Assembly (NCBI GenBank): GCA_026984515.1
Contig: JALSRZ010000122.1
Coordinates: 1-43,593 of the forward strand
DNA: 43,593 nucleotides
Source of the DNA: Thiohalobacter sp.
GTDB taxonomy: Bacteria; Pseudomonadota; Gammaproteobacteria; DSM-19610
Direction of reading: 5' to 3'
Shown here: positions 29,460-42,720 of the stretch, piece after piece
Numbering within the stretch: the first letter of the stretch is position 1
Layout: every line of letters starts with the position of its first letter
Program-made: the position numbers and the translations under genes
Notes under the pieces: model-generated
Seen by the model: only the letters and a program-made list of their open reading frames with translations
What the model was told of the DNA's origin: nothing
Database searches by the model: none

Positions 29460-31274
29460 ATGCAACTTTATGTACCCAACCGAACAGCACCGAAAAGCGG
29501 GTCTTTCGACAGCACCCCCGCCAGCGTTAAAAAATGGATCGACAACCTGCCGATGGCCAATATCGGCACTACCACGCGGCTGCTGTTTGAAGCCATTACC
29601 GAACTGAACCACCAGGATATCCCTGCCCAGCAGCGTTTTAAAACGCTGGAACTGCTGCACCGGCCGGTGCGCTATGTCACCGAGCGCATGAAAAAACACT
29701 ATGTCGGGCAAGCGTTGCCTCTGTCTCCGCGCAATCTCAAGATCGCCAGGCTGTCGCGGGAAATATCCCATTCGCTTGCCACTGGCTACAAGGTGCTGGT
29801 GATGGAGCAGATCGCCGGTATCGGGCGCAGGGACAGAAAACTCCTGATTACCGCCATTCACCGCTCCATCCGGCAGTTGAGCATGGTTCTGCTGAAGGCC
29901 TACCAGGTCTACGAGCCCTACCCGCAATCGGTCTGGCTGGAATTGCATTCCCTGTACCGCTACGCGGAGAGCAAACGCCTGCACAAGGTTGAAGTAGCAG
30001 AAGAAGATGCCGGCGACAAACAGGCCTCTACCATTGCCAGTGCCTACAAGCAGATGTTGTTGCTGGCGCTCGCCTGTCCCTACCGTCTGCGCCACAGCGA
30101 AGCGGAAGATGTATACCAGGCACTGGAAGGCTGGGCGGCCTACGCGGATCTGCAACCGCTCGGCAAGTTCACTGAAGCCCTGTTTTCCACCAACCTGGAC
30201 TCGGACCAGCCGCCCAGTTACCTGGTGCTGCGTGATGGCAGTGACAACTGTCATACCACGCGCATCCTGGCGACCCGCAAACTGGCCGAACACCTGCGCA
30301 GGGAACTGTCGGACAAGAGCGGTGCAAATTCCGGGAAACCCCGCCACCGGGTCAAGGCCGCCACCCTGCGCCGCCTGATGCTGGCCTGGGGTGTCATGCC
30401 CAAACGGCGTTTTTCCAGGGTCAGGGACCATTCGCAGGTCGTGGTCGCCATGGGTTTGAGCTCTATACACTATTTTGTCAGTGGCGAAGCCGCCTTCAAC
30501 GACGCCGGCGATGCGCACAACTGTCACCGTGAACTGGGTGCCGGGAGCGGCAGCACCCCGCAACTGGATCATGCCCGTTTCAGTGCCAGGACCACCCGTG
30601 ATCGTGAACATCAGGGCAAGCTGCCCGATGTATGGGAAATGAACTACACCCTGGAAGGCGACCCCAAACCTTCCAGCCTGGAAGACGCCGTTACCCGTGC
30701 CGCCCTGGGGGTACAGATCGACACCAGTCACTGTACCCAGAGCTGGAAAATGGTCAACGTCAGTGCCGGCGGCTACTGCCTGTTATGGGACAATGTGGAA
30801 ACCACCCGCGCCCAGGTCGGTGAGCTGCTGGGTATTCGCGAGGAAAGCGACCCCGACACCTTTCACTGGCGCCTGGGCGTGATCCGCTGGCTGAAGTATG
30901 CCGACAAGCGTGGACTGGACCTCGGCGTACAGATGCTGTCACCCGGAGCGGTCGGTATCGCGGCGCGGCTCGACAAAAAAGGCAAGGTCAGGGACGAAGA
31001 CTATACGCGCGGGCTGCTGTTGCCCGAAATCGCCTCGCTGCAGCAGGCGGCCACCCTGTTACTGCCCTCGCCGCCCTTCCAGCCGGGAGACACGGCCATC
31101 GCCAACTGTCACGGCAAGGACGTGCGCGTAAAGCTGACCAAACTGGTGGAAAATACCGGCAGCTTCGCCCAGTTCCAGTTTATTTCGCTGGGTGAAATCA
31201 GCCAGCCGCAGACCCGGAAACCGGCCAGGGCCCCCAAACCGAATGATTTTGACGACGTCTGGGAGTTACTCTGA
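29460..31274 (+). CDS. Large protein with PilZ-like C-terminal domain
   Basis: This 604-residue soluble protein starts MQLYVPNRTAPKSGSF and has no signal peptide or membrane segment. The first 350 residues are mostly helical (ASVKKWIDNLPMANIGTT, LKIARLSREISHSLATGYKV). The last third holds a PilZ-like domain with the N-x-S-x-x-G pattern in MVNVSAGGYCLLW and a later strand LDLGVQMLSPGAVGIAA. No RxxxR arginine motif stands before it, so c-di-GMP binding in the usual manner is doubtful. It may act with the FimX encoded downstream at 31996. The role is an inference from domain and context only. Confidence 0.7.
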   Translation: MQLYVPNRTAPKSGSFDSTPASVKKWIDNLPMANIGTTTRLLFEAITELNHQDIPAQQRFKTLELLHRPVRYVTERMKKHYVGQALPLSPRNLKIARLSREISHSLATGYKVLVMEQIAGIGRRDRKLLITAIHRSIRQLSMVLLKAYQVYEPYPQSVWLELHSLYRYAESKRLHKVEVAEEDAGDKQASTIASAYKQMLLLALACPYRLRHSEAEDVYQALEGWAAYADLQPLGKFTEALFSTNLDSDQPPSYLVLRDGSDNCHTTRILATRKLAEHLRRELSDKSGANSGKPRHRVKAATLRRLMLAWGVMPKRRFSRVRDHSQVVVAMGLSSIHYFVSGEAAFNDAGDAHNCHRELGAGSGSTPQLDHARFSARTTRDREHQGKLPDVWEMNYTLEGDPKPSSLEDAVTRAALGVQIDTSHCTQSWKMVNVSAGGYCLLWDNVETTRAQVGELLGIREESDPDTFHWRLGVIRWLKYADKRGLDLGVQMLSPGAVGIAARLDKKGKVRDEDYTRGLLLPEIASLQQAATLLLPSPPFQPGDTAIANCHGKDVRVKLTKLVENTGSFAQFQFISLGEISQPQTRKPARAPKPNDFDDVWELL

Positions 31275-31995: not shown

Positions 31996-34083
31996 ATGGA
32001 CAAGGAACACACGTTGCGACTGCTGGTGGTCGAAGAAACCCGCAACGACGCGGAGGCACTGGCCAACGTGTTACGCAATGCCGGCCAGGCATCACGTCTG
32101 ACCTATGCAGAAAACCTGGACGCAATCGGCGCAGCACTGGATGCCCAGGCGCCTGACCTGATCCTGTGCGCCACCGGCCTGGAAGACGCTTCGCTTGCTG
32201 CGGTCGCAGAACTGCTGCACCAGCGGCAGCTGAACGTGGCAATGATCGCCATCGGCGAGTCCTGTGACGAAGCAGGCATCATCGAGGCCATGCGCGACGG
32301 GGCCGCCGACCTGTGCTCTTATGATATGCCGGAACATCTGCAACTGGTGGTAAAGCGCGAGCTGTCGCAGGCCCAGACCAGCCAGAGCGCTCACGACTAC
32401 GAAGCCCGGTTCCGCGAAAGCGAAAAACGCGCCCGTATGCTGATGGAAAGCTCTCGCGACGCGATTGCCTATGTGCACGAAGGCATGCACATCTTCGCCA
32501 ACAGCTCCTACCTGGAGATGTTCGGTTTTGACAGTCTGGACGAAATCGAAGGCACCCCCATCATGGATATGGTGGCGCCGGATGACCACGCAGAGTTCAA
32601 GGACTTCCTGCGTAATTACGGCAAGAACGGTGAACAGGAAGGCAGGCTGGCGACCAACGGCCTGTTGCCGGATGGCAAAACCTTTAAGGCGGAAATGGAA
32701 TTTACCGCCGCCAGTATCGACGGCGAACCCTGCACGCAGATCGTGATCCGCAGCCAGGTGGCCGCCAGCGCCGAGCTGGAGCAGAAACTCAAGTACCTCA
32801 GCAAACAGGATACACTGACCGGCCTGTTCAACCGCCAGTATTTCCTGGAAGAACTGGAACTCGCGGTAACGGATACACTGAGCGGTTCCAGCAGTGCCGC
32901 CGTCATCTACCTGCTGATGGACAACTTCAAGGACATCAAGGACAGCATCGGTATCGGCGCAGCCGACATGGTCATCAACGACATTGCCGAACTGCTGCGC
33001 GAACACTGCAGTGAAAAGGATATTGCCGCACGCTTCGGCGACCACTCCTTCACCGTGCTGCGCCGCGATTGCGACCCGGAATCCATCCAGGCACTGGGCG
33101 AGAAGCTGCGCCAGGCGATCGAGGACCACATTGCCGATGTGGAAGGCCAGTCGGTCACGACCACCTGCAGTATCGGCATGACCGTGGTCGCGGAAAGCAC
33201 ACCATCCGCGCACGAAGTCATTTCACGCGCCGACCTGGCCTGTGAGGTGGCGCGTTCCTCCGGCGGCAACAAGATACACCTGCACAACCCGGTAGTGGAC
33301 GAAAAAATCGGCAAGGAACGCGACCAGCAGATGCACACGCTCATCCGCACGGCCCTGGAAGAAAACCAGTTCCAGCTCCTCTACCAGCCGATTGTCAGCC
33401 TGCAGGGCGAGGAAGGCGAGAACTATGAAGTACTGTTGCGCATGCAGAACGACGAAGGCGAATATATTCTCCCGAGCCAGTTCCTGCCGCTCGCTGAACA
33501 GACCGGGCAGATGTCGGAAATCGATCACTGGGTAATCCGCAACGCGGTGCAGAAACTTGCCGAACATCGCGCCCAGGGCGCCGACACCTGCTTCTTCATC
33601 AAGGTGGCGGCTGCCACATTGACCAACGAGGAACTGCCGGCCTACATCCACCAGTGCATGAAGGAAGTGCGGCTGCCGGGTGATGCACTGGTGTTCGAGA
33701 TTGCCGAAAAACACGCGGCCCAGCAGTTGAAACACGCCAGGAACTTTGTCAGGACCTTGCAGGAACTGCACTGCCGCACCGCACTGGAGCATTTTGGCGC
33801 CAGCCCCAACTCGTTCCAGTTACTCAAACACCTGCCAGTGGACTACCTGAAAATCGACGGCTCCTTCATTCACAACCTGGCCAGTGATACCGACAACCAG
33901 GCCATGGTGAAATCGATCCTGGATACGGCCAAATCGATGAACAAGCAGTGTATTGCGGAATATGTGCAGGATGCCCACAGCCTTGCAGTACTCTGGCAAA
34001 GCGGCATTCATTTCATCCAGGGCAATTTCCTGCAGGAGCCCAGCGAAGCACTGGACTACGACTTCTCCAGCGAAATCGCCTGA
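31996..34083 (+). CDS. fimX: FimX-type c-di-GMP receptor (REC-PAS-GGDEF-EAL)
   Basis: FimX binds c-di-GMP through a non-catalytic EAL domain and promotes type IV pilus extension and twitching. The 695-residue product (691 in P. aeruginosa) has a receiver-like domain (about 1-118), a PAS domain (about 140-255), a GGDEF domain whose signature is degenerate (ARFGDHSF), and an EAL domain whose signature is EVL (NYEVLLRM). The degenerate pattern is that of FimX, and neither cyclase nor phosphodiesterase activity is expected. AGGAG lies about 14 bases before ATG 31996. pilF is in the same window, but no pilB or pilZ. Confidence 0.9.
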   Translation: MDKEHTLRLLVVEETRNDAEALANVLRNAGQASRLTYAENLDAIGAALDAQAPDLILCATGLEDASLAAVAELLHQRQLNVAMIAIGESCDEAGIIEAMRDGAADLCSYDMPEHLQLVVKRELSQAQTSQSAHDYEARFRESEKRARMLMESSRDAIAYVHEGMHIFANSSYLEMFGFDSLDEIEGTPIMDMVAPDDHAEFKDFLRNYGKNGEQEGRLATNGLLPDGKTFKAEMEFTAASIDGEPCTQIVIRSQVAASAELEQKLKYLSKQDTLTGLFNRQYFLEELELAVTDTLSGSSSAAVIYLLMDNFKDIKDSIGIGAADMVINDIAELLREHCSEKDIAARFGDHSFTVLRRDCDPESIQALGEKLRQAIEDHIADVEGQSVTTTCSIGMTVVAESTPSAHEVISRADLACEVARSSGGNKIHLHNPVVDEKIGKERDQQMHTLIRTALEENQFQLLYQPIVSLQGEEGENYEVLLRMQNDEGEYILPSQFLPLAEQTGQMSEIDHWVIRNAVQKLAEHRAQGADTCFFIKVAAATLTNEELPAYIHQCMKEVRLPGDALVFEIAEKHAAQQLKHARNFVRTLQELHCRTALEHFGASPNSFQLLKHLPVDYLKIDGSFIHNLASDTDNQAMVKSILDTAKSMNKQCIAEYVQDAHSLAVLWQSGIHFIQGNFLQEPSEALDYDFSSEIA

Positions 34084-35457: not shown

Positions 35458-35781
35458 ATGGGACAGCGCTTGCGACACCCCGAATTTGACGAATACGGAC
35501 TCCTGAAGGACCCCCGTGACTGGTCCCCCGCGCTGGCGCGCGAGCTGGCCGGCGAGGCGGGTATCCGTGAACTCAGCGACGCACACTGGGCGTTTATCCA
35601 CTCACTGCAGGATTACTACCGGGAATTTCACGTGCCGCCACCCACCGCCAGGATCTGCCACCACCTGCAGTTAGCGCACGGCTGTGGCCACGATCTGTTT
35701 GCCACCTGCCTGAATGCATGGCGTATTGCAGGACTTCCCGACCCGGGAGAGGAAGCAAAATCCTACCTGTCCGCCGAGTAG
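35458..35781 (+). CDS. DsrC/TusE-family protein without the conserved cysteines (RspA-like)
   Basis: The 107-residue product has the DsrC/TusE fold: FDEYGLLKDPRDWSPALARE, LSDAHWAFIHSLQDYYREFH and RIAGLPDPG near the C-terminus. DsrC carries sulfur on cysteines at and near its C-terminus (the ACKIAGxPKPTGC pattern), and TusE keeps one. Here the aligned segment reads AWRIAGLPDPGEE, so both are lost, and a tail YLSAE is added. This fits the RspA class described for sulfur bacteria, thought to be regulatory. GGAGG stands before ATG 35458, and TATACT (35420-35425) may be its -10. No dsr or tus genes are nearby. Confidence 0.85.
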   Translation: MGQRLRHPEFDEYGLLKDPRDWSPALARELAGEAGIRELSDAHWAFIHSLQDYYREFHVPPPTARICHHLQLAHGCGHDLFATCLNAWRIAGLPDPGEEAKSYLSAE

Positions 35782-35837: not shown

Positions 35838-38081
35838 CTATTCGCGCACCAGTTTTTCCACCCGTTGCAGGCCACGCGGCAGTTTCCTGCCCTTGCGGCC
35901 GCGATCACCGGCATACTGCTCGAGGTCGGCGAGTTTCAGTTTCAGGTGACGTTTCCCCGCGTACACCACCAGGCAGGCATCCGCTGACACGCTGGCAACA
36001 CCCACCATGGCTTCTTCTCCGCTGGCGAGTTTCTTAGCGCTGACCCCCTGGATCTTGATGCCCTTGCCACGGTTGAGTTGCGGAATTTCAGCGGCCGGAA
36101 TCACCAGCATGTGTCCCTGCTGATCCACCGCGGCCACCCGGTCCGCAGCCGCATCCTGCACCGGGGCCGGCAACAGCACCCGGGCATGCCTGGGCACCGA
36201 CAACACCGACTTGCCTGCCCGGGTGCGCGCTGCCAGGTCACCCAGCCGGGCAATGAAGCCATACCCCGCACTGGTCGCCAGCAGGTACCGGCTGTCCGGG
36301 TCACCTGCCAGCACACCGACAAAATGCGCCCCTTCGGGCGGGTTGAAGCGCCCGGTCAGCGGTTCCCCCTGGCCACGCGCTGATGGCAGGCTGTGTGCGG
36401 CCAGCGTGTAGGCGCGCCCGCTGGAATCGAGGAAGACCACTTGCTGGTTGGTACGCCCGTAGGCTGCGGCCAGGAAGCGGTCACCGGACTTGTAACTCAG
36501 TGATTCAGGGTCGATTTCGTGCCCTTTGGCCGCCCGCACCCAGCCTTTTTCGGACAGCACCACCGTTACCGGTTCGCTGGCGATGAGCGCCGTCTCATCC
36601 ATCGCCCGGGCCACGGGACGTTCCACCAGGCGCGAGCGACGCGGGTCGCCGTAGGCTTCGGTATCCGCCTGGATTTCTTGCTTGACCAGGGTACGCAGGC
36701 GACGTTTTGACGCCAGTATCTTTTCCAGCGTATCCCGTTCCGCGCTGAGTTCGTCCTGTTCACCACGGATTTTCATTTCCTCCAGGCGCGCCAGCTGCCG
36801 CAGTTTCAGATCAAGAATGGCATCGGCCTGCAGTTCGCTGATTTTGAAGCGTTTCATCAATACCGGCCGGGGCTCGTCCTCGCTGCGGATAATGGCAATG
36901 ACCTCGTCGATATTGAGATAGGCCACCAGCAAACCATCCAGGATATGCAGGCGGTTGAGTACCTTGTCCAGGCGGTACTGCAGGCGGCGCGTTACCGTAG
37001 CCAGTCGGAATTCCAGCCACTCCCTGAGCAGGGTGCGCAGGTCCTTGACCGCTGGCCGGCCGTTCAGGCCGATCATGTTGGTATTGACGCGGTAACTGCG
37101 TTCCAGGTCCGTGCTGGCAAACAGGTGCGACATCAGGGCATCCACGTCGATACGGGCGGAGCGCGGCACGATCACCAGGCGAGTCGGGTTTTCATGGTCG
37201 GATTCATCGCGCAGGTCCGCCACCATCGGCAGTTTTTTGGCCGTCATCTGCGCGGCAATCTGCTCCAGCACCCGGTTACCGGATACCTGGTAAGGCAGTT
37301 CGGTTACCACGATGTCGCCGTTTTCCTGCTCGTAGCAGGCGCGGATACGCACACTGCCGCTACCGGTGCGATAGGCATTCAGCAGGTCTTCGCGCGGGGT
37401 GATGATTTCGCCACCGGTGGGATAATCCGGGCCGGTGATGTGTTCGCACAATTCGTCGACGCTGGCTTTGGGGTGCTCCAGCAGGTGGATCACGGCACTC
37501 GATACTTCCCGCAGGTTGTGCGGGGGGATGTCCGTGGCCATACCCACGGCAATACCGGTCGCACCATTGAGCAGCACCGCGGGCAGGCGCGCCGGCAACA
37601 GCAGGGGCTCCTGCAGCGTGCCGTCGAAATTGGGGGCCCAGTCCACGGTGCCCTCGCCCAGCTCGGCCAGCAGCACTTCGGCAAACGGTGCCAGGCGTGC
37701 TTCGGTGTAGCGCATGGCGGCAAACGATTTCGGGTCATCCGTCGAGCCCCAGTTACCCTGCCCGTCCACCAGCGGGTAGCGGAAGGCGAATGGCTGCGCC
37801 ATGTGCACCATCGCCTCGTAGCAGGCCGAGTCGCCGTGCGGGTGGAACTTGCCCAGCACGTCACCCACGGTGCGCGCGGATTTCTTGAACTTGGCGCGCG
37901 CCGACAGTCCCAGTTCGGACATGGCATAGACGATGCGTCTCTGCACCGGTTTCAGGCCGTCACCAATATGCGGCAGGGCACGATCGAGTATCACGTACAT
38001 GGAATAATCCAGGTACGCCTTTTCGGTAAAGCGGTGCAGGGGAAGGGTTTCTACGCTTTCAAGGGTGGTTTCGCTGGCCAT
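35838..38081 (-). CDS. parC: DNA topoisomerase IV subunit A
   Basis: ParC is the DNA-cutting subunit of topoisomerase IV, which unlinks daughter chromosomes together with ParE. The 747-residue protein starts at ATG 38081. It has the winged-helix region ([40 protein letters not shown]), the catalytic tyrosine in [10 protein letters not shown], coiled coils around [20 protein letters not shown], and a C-terminal pinwheel domain. The quinolone-region residues read GDSACYE (wild-type-like Ser). parE lies upstream on the same strand, but a double-PilZ gene stands between them. Confidence 0.97.
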
Positions 38082-38166
38082 GCCCGTTCCGTGTCTGTGA
38101 CAAAACGGGGCTATTGTAACCGGCGCCCGGATAGAGAGTGAAATTTCTTCCTGACCGTGGAGCGCT

Positions 38167-40695
38167 TCAGTCTGCGCGAGTGGCGCCGCGCAGCAGCGCC
38201 CATTCATCCGTGATATCGATCATTTCACCGTAACCGACCAGCGAGTGCGCCAGGTCGGACAACCTGATTGCACGGTGTTTCGACTGGGCGCGCACCGAGT
38301 CGATCATTTTGTCCAGCGCCTTCTCATCCAGCGGCCGGGTGAAGGTCGATACGATTTTTATGCAGCGCCAGTCGGTACGTTCGGTCAGCCCCGTAAGGAA
38401 GGCTTCGCGCCGGGCATCGCTGGCGAAATCCAGTTCGGTTGCCGCCTGTATAAAAGACGCCCCGGTCAGTTCATCGCGTTCCTTGTACAGGTACATTTCC
38501 AGCTCGAACGGGGTTGGATGGTCACTGGCGTTACGACTCTGCCGCAACAGTATCTGCACGGCATCATACAATGCGGAAACCACCCTGGGTTCATTGATAC
38601 AGCGGAAATCCGTCCCGCTGCCGTCCGAAAAATAATCCGCCAGCGGACTGCCCGCCTCCGGCACCCCGACGCACTGAAGATGCGCCCCCCCTTCGTTGCT
38701 GCGTCCCAGGAAAAACGGCACCGTGGGCGTATTGGCCGCCAGCAGCGCTTCGTAGACCCGCGATGCGGTCGCACCCCAGATATCGCCGATATCCACACCG
38801 AGCTTGTGCTGGTTCTTGGTAATCAGCTCGACAAAAAACTCCTTGAGCCCTTCCCGCTTGCCACCCATGACGCGCTCCAGCATCAGCATCGTACCCGTCT
38901 CGTTGTCCAGGGCATGCACCACGCGGTAGGGAATGTCCATCAGGTTGGTTGACGATTTCTTCTGCTGCAGCGAGACTAGTCCAATCTTGACGGTTACCCC
39001 GGTCCTAACCGACATACGTGCCTGCAACTGGATACGCATACCGCGCGTGGAGATATCCTTCGAGGTAGCCTCCAGCACGCGGTCACCGATGCGCACATCC
39101 ACTCTGGTTTCCGCCAGGTAGCGATCCTCACGACGCCGCTCCACGTAGCCGAAGCGAATCAACTCGGGACGCAGCTGCTCATTCGACAGCGTCACCCGGT
39201 CCAGCACCGTTCCGTCCTGCAGGCCACGGCACTCGGTACCCACCCAGGCTGCCAGGCTGTCTGCCCCGGTGTCCGATTCCTTCTTCAGGGACCGGAAACC
39301 CTGCGTTATGTCGACCACGTAGCCGATGTAGCGCAGCCTGCCGAGACGCTCCCGCAGCGCTGCCATCTGTGTTTCGGATTTGTATTGCAGGCGCTGTGAA
39401 ACCTCGTCCAGCTTGCTGTCAGCAACCGGTGCTGCCGGTACGCGGCTGACGTGCAGTTTGACAATACAGTGTTCTGACTGCTCCAGGGTATAGCACAGCA
39501 TGGCCTGAAAGGCCGCGGGTGTAGCACACTCGAAATCGGCCATGGAATAAATGCGCTGACACTGGTCCCGCTCGCCACGCCGACGGAACATGACCAGCAC
39601 AACGGAGTGCTGCTGTTGCAACTGCTCAAGGCGTGCGGGCAGGCACAGGGGGGTAAAATTGTAGTTATCCTCGTCGGTGCAGAAAAACCGCGCCAGGTGC
39701 GAGTTGCCCTCGCTCATCGCCACCGCCCCGGTGCGCAAACCGGCCTCGTGCTGCTCCACGAAAAAGGGGATCTGGGTCGCACTTTGCGCGTAACAACGTT
39801 CGTAGTACCAGCTCAGGATGGACTGGTACTCGTCATCGACATCCAGTTTGTAACGACTCTGGTAACGCTCGACCAATGCTTCCAGCAGGGCGGAAAAACC
39901 GGGCGGTTTCGCGAGGTCCAGGCGCTGCAGGCACAGTACGGTTTCGGTGTCCCGTTCTTCGCTGGATACAATCCGGTAAGGGATGCGGTTCACGCGTATC
40001 TTGCCCGCTTCATCCGCCAGTCCCGGCCAGGAAACCGTCACCTCCTGCTCCGGCTGCAGTGTAGTCAGGCCCTTGACCAGCACCTGGGTTCCACACACGG
40101 AAACATCCCTGGTAGTGGCATTGGTTTTTATATTACCGCGCTCCAGGATTACGTTGCAGGCGTACTTCAGGCGCGGGTGGGTACGCTTGCGAAAATAACC
40201 CAGCGGCAACAGGGCGGGATTCTCCACCAGGTCCGCGGGCAGATCACGCGTACCGGTATCGACGCTCTGACCGGCCCGTTCCAGTGCCGCGGCACGCGCC
40301 CGTTCCAGGCGGCGCTGTTCGATCTGCTGACGCTGCTGCTCGGCTTCTGCACGCGCGGTCTCCCGGGCCTGGAGCGTGTGGGAGCCCCCGACGATGGCTT
40401 CGAAAGTACCCACCGTGTACACACCGTTATTATCGAGCAGCCCCTGCTCGAACATCTCGAAAGAGACATCGTCCAGGTAGTGAATACGATCATTGAAGGC
40501 ATAGCGCCGGCATTCCCCGGCAACCCGACCGCGCATATCGATGGTCTGGAAACAGGGTCGTGTCAGGCGGGATTCTTCCATGCGTTGCAGGAAACGGCCG
40601 GTATCGGAGCTTTCCGCCACGATTTCGATGACCAGTTCCTTGTCATTGGCACTGACCCGCGAACGCTTGAAATGTTTGACGATAATCTCGCCCAT
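38167..40695 (-). CDS. Double-PilZ protein with internal duplication
   Basis: This 842-residue cytoplasmic protein has two PilZ domains, both with c-di-GMP-binding signatures: RKRTHPR (169-175) with DVSVCG (197-202), and RREDR (521-525) with DISTRG (547-552). After each comes a similar region: [20 protein letters not shown] and [11 protein letters not shown] in the first, [20 protein letters not shown] and [11 protein letters not shown] in the second. The protein thus looks like a duplicated module. A charged helical linker ([20 protein letters not shown]) precedes the first PilZ. ATG 40695 ([13 protein letters not shown]) has GGGA just upstream. It is a likely c-di-GMP receptor of unknown output. 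It sits between parE and parC on the same strand. Confidence 0.85.
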
Positions 40696-40821
40696 GCTGT
40701 CCCGTCGCGCCGCTCCCGGCGCACCCCTGAAATCATCCGGCACCCGCCCTTGAAATACCTGTTTTTTTCTTTGGTATACAGCAGGTTAAGAAACGACAGC
40801 CGTGTGGCCGCCCGGTACAGC

Positions 40822-42720
<1,899 letters not shown>

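Follow-up and report, generated by a model that had tools for sequence, protein, structure and literature searches.

A duplicated PilZ protein encoded between parE and parC in Thiohalobacter sp. is a likely c-di-GMP receptor of a wider, PlzC-type family

The window analyzed here, a stretch of 43,593 nucleotides from Thiohalobacter sp. (contig JALSRZ010000122.1), encodes on its minus strand an 842-amino acid protein with two PilZ domains (the dual-PilZ gene, or PilZ2; 38167..40695, with the ATG at 40695 and the stop codon included). PilZ2 lies between parE and parC, the genes for the two subunits of topoisomerase IV. We consider it likely that its product is a dual-PilZ receptor for cyclic di-GMP (c-di-GMP) belonging to a PlzC-type family, and that the gene was inserted once between parE and parC and has been inherited vertically.

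The dual-PilZ protein consists of an N-terminal domain followed by two repeats of a PilZ domain plus an alpha/beta domain. The unrepeated N-terminal domain (residues 1-165; 40201..40695, minus strand, as for all parts of the gene) was delimited by invariant alignment columns, hhalign and the structure model; R43, D53, R55, V58, D75 and T94 are invariant in the 28-row family alignment (A2), and hhalign found no similarity between this domain and the other domains of the protein. It is followed by PilZ domain 1 (residues 169-282; 39850..40191), alpha/beta domain 1 (residues 283-478; 39262..39849), PilZ domain 2 (residues 519-631; 38803..39141) and alpha/beta domain 2 (residues 632-842; 38170..38802). 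Pfam, structure matches and motifs define the PilZ domains, alpha/beta domain 1 is defined by the strand list of the model and the comparison of halves, and alpha/beta domain 2 is its repeat. Half 1 (residues 160-478) and half 2 (508-842) align over 307 columns (hhalign probability 100, E 5.9e-48), and plain blastp aligns them at 22% identity over 330 columns (E 1.6e-21). The parts that follow the PilZ domains also align when compared alone (probability 99.8, E 1.8e-27), so the duplication is far above chance and takes in the following domain. This self-comparison bears out the internal duplication proposed in an initial annotation of the DNA, together with its claim that the same kind of domain follows each PilZ domain. 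The sequence marks given for that domain need correction: IPYRIV and IPYRVV are the last strands of the PilZ barrels in the strand list of the model, and only IPFF (alpha/beta domain 1) and VPFF (alpha/beta domain 2) belong to the following domain.

The Pfam model PF07238 (PilZ) matches the protein at two stretches (E 2.9e-15, 56.9 bits against a curated cut-off of 22.5). Both matches carry intact ligand motifs, as the initial annotation had also read them: R171-THP-R175 (RxxxR) and D197-VSVC-G202 (DxSxxG) in PilZ-1, and R521-RED-R525 and D547-ISTR-G552 in PilZ-2. RxxxR is present in 39 of 39 homologues for PilZ-1 and 38 of 39 for PilZ-2, and DxSxxG is retained by both domains in the window protein and in every tabulated parE/parC-linked sequence. 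Of 13 PilZ matches in the parent genome, 11 fall outside the dual-PilZ protein. The AlphaFold2 model of the full protein, built on alignment A2, has a mean pLDDT of 87.4 and a pTM of 0.79. Its two barrels (169-282 and 519-631) match the solved PilZ structures of MotI (Z 14.3, rmsd 2.3, 108 residues aligned), PP4397 with c-di-GMP (Z 14.1, rmsd 1.7, 105 aligned) and cellulose synthase (Z 13.2, rmsd 2.2, 107 aligned); as modeled, both barrels have the PilZ beta-barrel fold, with Z about 12-14 to solved structures. The window protein very probably senses c-di-GMP. The ligand would occupy both barrels via RxxxR and DxSxxG, the PilZ and following domains would then rotate relative to one another, and the duplicated alpha/beta domains would expose or mask a partner surface in the control of motility or biofilm formation.

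Pfam matched PilZ in 28 of 28 aligned homologues and, at E up to 0.1, found in them nothing else besides scattered weak matches in one or two members. Candidate known folds for the repeated alpha/beta domain were sought and rejected: the A3 profile searched against PDB sequences gave a best E of 0.14, as expected by chance, and a whole-family profile gave zero matches at E up to 0.01. Alpha/beta domain 2 modeled alone reached a pLDDT of 86.9; a Foldseek search of this model against solved structures returned no convincing match (best E 0.048), and VIA-align gave as its best a weak match to a LOV/PAS domain (Z 5.6, rmsd 4.1, 117 aligned). The repeated domain might conceivably have a PAS/GAF-like arrangement.

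The architecture differs from those of other PilZ receptors. The barrels superpose on those of YcgR, PlzD (VCA0042), MotI and PP4397 (Z about 12-14), whereas the chains of those proteins measure about 210-250 residues against 842 here, and Pfam at E up to 0.1 detected a YcgR N-terminal domain in none of the 28 homologues. PixB of Myxococcus xanthus is a c-di-GMP-binding protein that, like the window protein, carries two PilZ domains in a single chain; in contrast, its C-terminal part is an acetyltransferase domain and the serine of the motif is missing, while both DxSxxG motifs are intact in the window protein (PMC8316039). Pfam found a GNAT acetyltransferase domain in 0 of 28 homologues. The dual-PilZ family thus fits neither the YcgR type nor the PixB type.

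The family is gammaproteobacterial and is spread well beyond Thiohalobacter. In the window's family in the Genome Taxonomy Database (GTDB), 17 of 20 genomes carry the dual-PilZ gene, as do 4 of 11 genomes in a second family (f115), the single genome of a third (f82) and 37 of 41 Vibrio genomes. A class-wide draw of genomes at 90% completeness or more contained it in 28 of 370 genomes and 20 of 272 genera. Named relatives include metagenome-assembled genomes deposited as Thiogranum and Thiohalobacter, as well as Methylophaga, Alteromonas, Vibrio, Enterovibrio and Veronia; in Veronia (L101, L103), two neighboring genes of the family stand in tandem. The Vibrio homologue L091 aligns with window protein residues 24-831 at about 21% identity (E 1e-28), which amounts to full-length homology. 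Copies that are split or contain stops were found in G331, G343, G053 and G114. In G331 (C11:158337-160656) the protein is encoded as two overlapping open reading frames (ORFs) with the break within the first alpha/beta domain, by frameshift or natural split. G011 has an additional partial copy on a separate contig, which probably reflects a mixed bin.

Among the Vibrio loci fetched (30 of the 37 positive genomes), radA flanks the dual-PilZ gene in 30 of 30 and serB in 29 of 30, the flanks being named by reading the genes of L091. VC2344, the gene for PlzC of V. cholerae, presumably lies between VC2343 (radA) and VC2345 (serB); if that order is right, the Vibrio member of the dual-PilZ family is PlzC. 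PlzC and the Vibrio relatives would then share two PilZ domains, with motifs intact in L091, and the radA-serB site. The dual-PilZ family probably includes PlzC (VC2344). PlzC keeps RxxxR and DxSxxG, and it binds c-di-GMP in a published screen and in earlier work cited there (PMC4624772). A review places PlzC and PlzD at 0.1-0.3 uM and gives biofilm formation, motility and virulence as outputs (PMC10519070).

The position of PilZ2 between parE (topoisomerase IV subunit B; 40822..42708, minus strand; Pfam DNA_gyraseB, Toprim and DNA_gyraseB_C) and parC (subunit A, 747 amino acids; 35838..38081, minus strand; Pfam DNA_topoisoIV, E 7.6e-141) is as the initial annotation described it: all three genes lie on one strand, with gaps of 126 bp on the parE side (40696..40821) and 85 bp on the parC side. 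With gene positions taken from profile searches, the parE-parC interval holds PilZ2 in 22 genomes: 15 of the window's genus (g1), 2 of g3, 4 of f115 and 1 of f82, with g1, g2 and g3 all in the window's family. Fifteen of the 17 g1 genomes have PilZ2, always in this interval and contiguously in 14; in G014 a GGDEF-type (diguanylate cyclase) gene on the opposite strand (L128 3707-4741) separates it from parC. In both g3 genomes parE and PilZ2 are separated by a fumC-like gene of opposite orientation, as read in G018, with the same 1.58-kb gap in G019. All 17 copies in the window's family thus occupy the interval, which in three cases has taken in an additional gene. The linked f115 genomes are G238, G398, G399 and G134, of which G398 and G399 were assumed to be the assemblies also designated L067 and L068; in G134 a 774-bp spacer comes between PilZ2 and parC. 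A long inverted repeat lies in the PilZ2-parC gap of L067. A contiguous three-gene operon was considered as the general rule and rejected, given the opposite-strand genes in G014, G018 and G019 and the spacer in G134.

Close relatives without PilZ2 have parE and parC directly adjacent, at 19 bp in G010 (g1) and 31 bp in G017 (g2). In f115 genomes that lack the gene, parE and parC are 247 bp apart in G385, 305 bp in G402 and 65 bp in G400. The other f115 genomes without the gene have no parE at the locus (G320, G396), a GyrA-like match only (G401) or no match (G397); G006 leaves no call on PilZ2, its contig ending about 130 bp past parE. Beyond these families the gene is mostly elsewhere. Among the 28 gene-bearing genomes of the class sample, 8 are linked (G000, G002, G003, G009, G018, G101, G134, G238), and in 20 PilZ2 is distant from parC or on a separate contig, with no parC found in G064; these unlinked calls mostly involve separate draft contigs, so a few may be linked, the exceptions being G053 and G329, where both genes are on the same contig about 1 Mb or more apart. 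Methylophaga-type loci have yciB-, yciI- and bolA-like genes upstream and a pmbA-like gene downstream, as named by sequence reading. The conserved order raised in the initial annotation therefore recurs in three GTDB families and holds for every copy in the window's family, but across the class the gene does lie elsewhere in most relatives. No title or abstract opening in the literature surveyed dealt with a parE-dual-PilZ-parC arrangement.

When 39 family members were placed in a tree, one branch set the linked homologues apart from the rest, equivalent to a single change. In a tree of 30 ParE rows, G010 and G017 fall among the linked genomes of their family (forks 96 and 97), and the linked f115 and f82 rows neighbor the window-family group. 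One insertion followed by losses is the simplest account of the parE-parC position; the insertion would have occurred in the ancestor of three related families, with vertical inheritance thereafter. The region beyond parC, including a DUF1015 gene, a GNAT gene and more genes, is common to the window, G101 and G134. With this wider synteny conserved, the parE-PilZ2-parC order alone is no argument for a shared function.

Promoter-like elements were compared across the linked genomes by looking 20-60 bp ahead of each start codon for hexamers that agree with TATAAT at five or more of the six positions, with expectations from mononucleotide shuffles. Such a -10-like hexamer precedes parC in 20 of 22 linked genomes, where shuffling predicts 1.0; the shuffles preserve base composition only and the genomes are related, so these are not 20 independent cases. 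It precedes parC in 0 of 7 genomes lacking an intervening PilZ2. In the window it is part of a promoter-like TTCACT-18-TACAAT in the PilZ2-parC gap (38113..38142, minus strand). The form of the hexamer differs by lineage (TACAAT, TAGAAT, TATAAT, TATCAT), a variation that points to selection on function. Before PilZ2, hexamers were found in 5 of 22 linked genomes (1.9 expected), amounting to no conserved promoter-like element, and before parE in 1 of 22 (1.8 expected), where TAGCAT is conserved in nine of 22. We infer that parC is driven by its own promoter where PilZ2 intervenes, as in most linked genomes, and that PilZ2 depends on read-through, probably from the parE promoter. The co-expression of the three genes suggested in the initial annotation is compatible with the short gaps, but given the conserved element before parC, co-transcription of PilZ2 with parC is not enforced. 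In the f82 genome (G101) the gaps are 9 and 0 bp and parC has no -10-like element before it, an arrangement resembling a genuine operon. An intrinsic terminator common to the genomes downstream of parE was considered and rejected, hairpins occurring in 5 of 19 gaps tested without conservation; the terminator-like hairpin at 40812-40795 in the window's parE-PilZ2 gap recurs in the nearest relative and is not conserved across the genus. A simple terminator and promoter scan gave counts equal to chance, only the cross-genome -10 comparison standing out. Searching the window with Rfam at the gathering threshold revealed no known RNA, c-di-GMP riboswitches included.

That PilZ2 shares one strand and one interval with parE and parC in 22 genomes of three families might indicate that its product regulates topoisomerase IV or segregation in response to c-di-GMP, the position of the gene being kept for action on, or co-production with, ParE and ParC, and the operon-like spacing in G101 would agree. 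However, PilZ2 is dispensable, being absent from G010, G017 and 7 of 11 f115 genomes; it lies elsewhere in most lineages, a promoter-like element of its own precedes parC in 20 of the 22 linked genomes, the wider synteny is equally conserved, and Pfam detects nothing besides PilZ in the protein. We regard this explanation as quite improbable, and a specific version, in which the linked proteins would contact ParE/ParC via the alpha/beta domains and gate topoisomerase IV by c-di-GMP at a division or surface-attachment switch, as highly improbable. A link to topoisomerase IV is thus possible, but it has no positive support and several findings lead away from it. The connection between c-di-GMP and decatenation floated in the initial annotation is not upheld by the wider synteny, by the PilZ2-less relatives with adjacent parE and parC, or by the location of the gene elsewhere in most lineages. 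We know of no topoisomerase IV linkage for CdbA, a Myxococcus xanthus protein. The initial annotation held that a link between c-di-GMP and decatenation or division would be new, but a connection between c-di-GMP and chromosome organization would not be the first, since CdbA is a c-di-GMP receptor acting on chromosome organization and segregation and so a precedent for a receptor tied to nucleoid organization (PMC7156744).

The window has a second c-di-GMP-related gene beyond parC, encoding a receiver-PAS-GGDEF-EAL protein (31996..34083, plus strand; domains by Pfam) with the altered, degenerate motifs GDHSF and EVL, whose layout we take to resemble that of FimX. A partnership between FimX and a PilZ protein is established in Xanthomonas, and the dual-PilZ protein could likewise partner the FimX-like protein in control of type IV pili and twitching, topoisomerase IV being an irrelevant neighbor. 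The FimX-like gene adjoins the DUF1015 gene in 8 of 13 g1 loci (L052-L064) and in G009 and G134, with no match in the other five of those loci, where the sequence covered is shorter. Such a partnership is nonetheless unlikely: the FimX-like gene is on the opposite strand and several genes away, G101 bears PilZ2 and shows no FimX-like match in 16 kb from within parC onward, and the Vibrio dual-PilZ gene sits by radA and serB. It is extremely improbable that PilZ2 is a neutral passenger, an inserted and decaying signaling gene with no current role. Its repeated absence (G010, G017, 7 of 11 f115 genomes) and the four broken copies would be expected of a passenger, but its full-length dN/dS against three relatives in the genus (L052, L063, L053) is 0.12, 0.11 and 0.16, and the motifs are intact in all linked copies. 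The corresponding values are 0.04, 0.04 and 0.06 for parE and 0.03, 0.08 and 0.10 for parC; PilZ2 is under purifying selection and evolves faster than its two neighbors.

Several points weigh against the preferred explanation, a PlzC-type receptor inserted once. Identity between the window protein and the Vibrio relative is only about 21%, their gene neighborhoods differ, and literature searches gave no confirmation of the presumed placement of VC2344 between radA and serB. The PilZ-1 DxSxxG motif is lost in Methylophaga-type sequences, so two-site binding is no family rule; elsewhere it is retained, with N replacing D in L132. The branch uniting all linked homologues has a support of only 27.

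Two further genes near the FimX-like gene and parC were noted. A 604-amino acid protein (29460..31274, plus strand) near the FimX-like gene has no Pfam or NCBIfam match, and a 47% identical relative is in the same place in G134. A DsrC-like gene (35458..35781, plus strand) is divergent from the DUF1015 gene, the listed ORFs overlapping by 2 bp, and is present in only some relatives.

A widespread and apparently little-studied dual-PilZ family is a more useful outcome than the topoisomerase idea. Its duplicated domain is covered by no Pfam model and has no clear match among solved structures. The promoter-like element that precedes parC only where PilZ2 intervenes would exemplify a gene pair split into separately expressed units, and the dual-PilZ family may supply the architecture behind the receptor PlzC.
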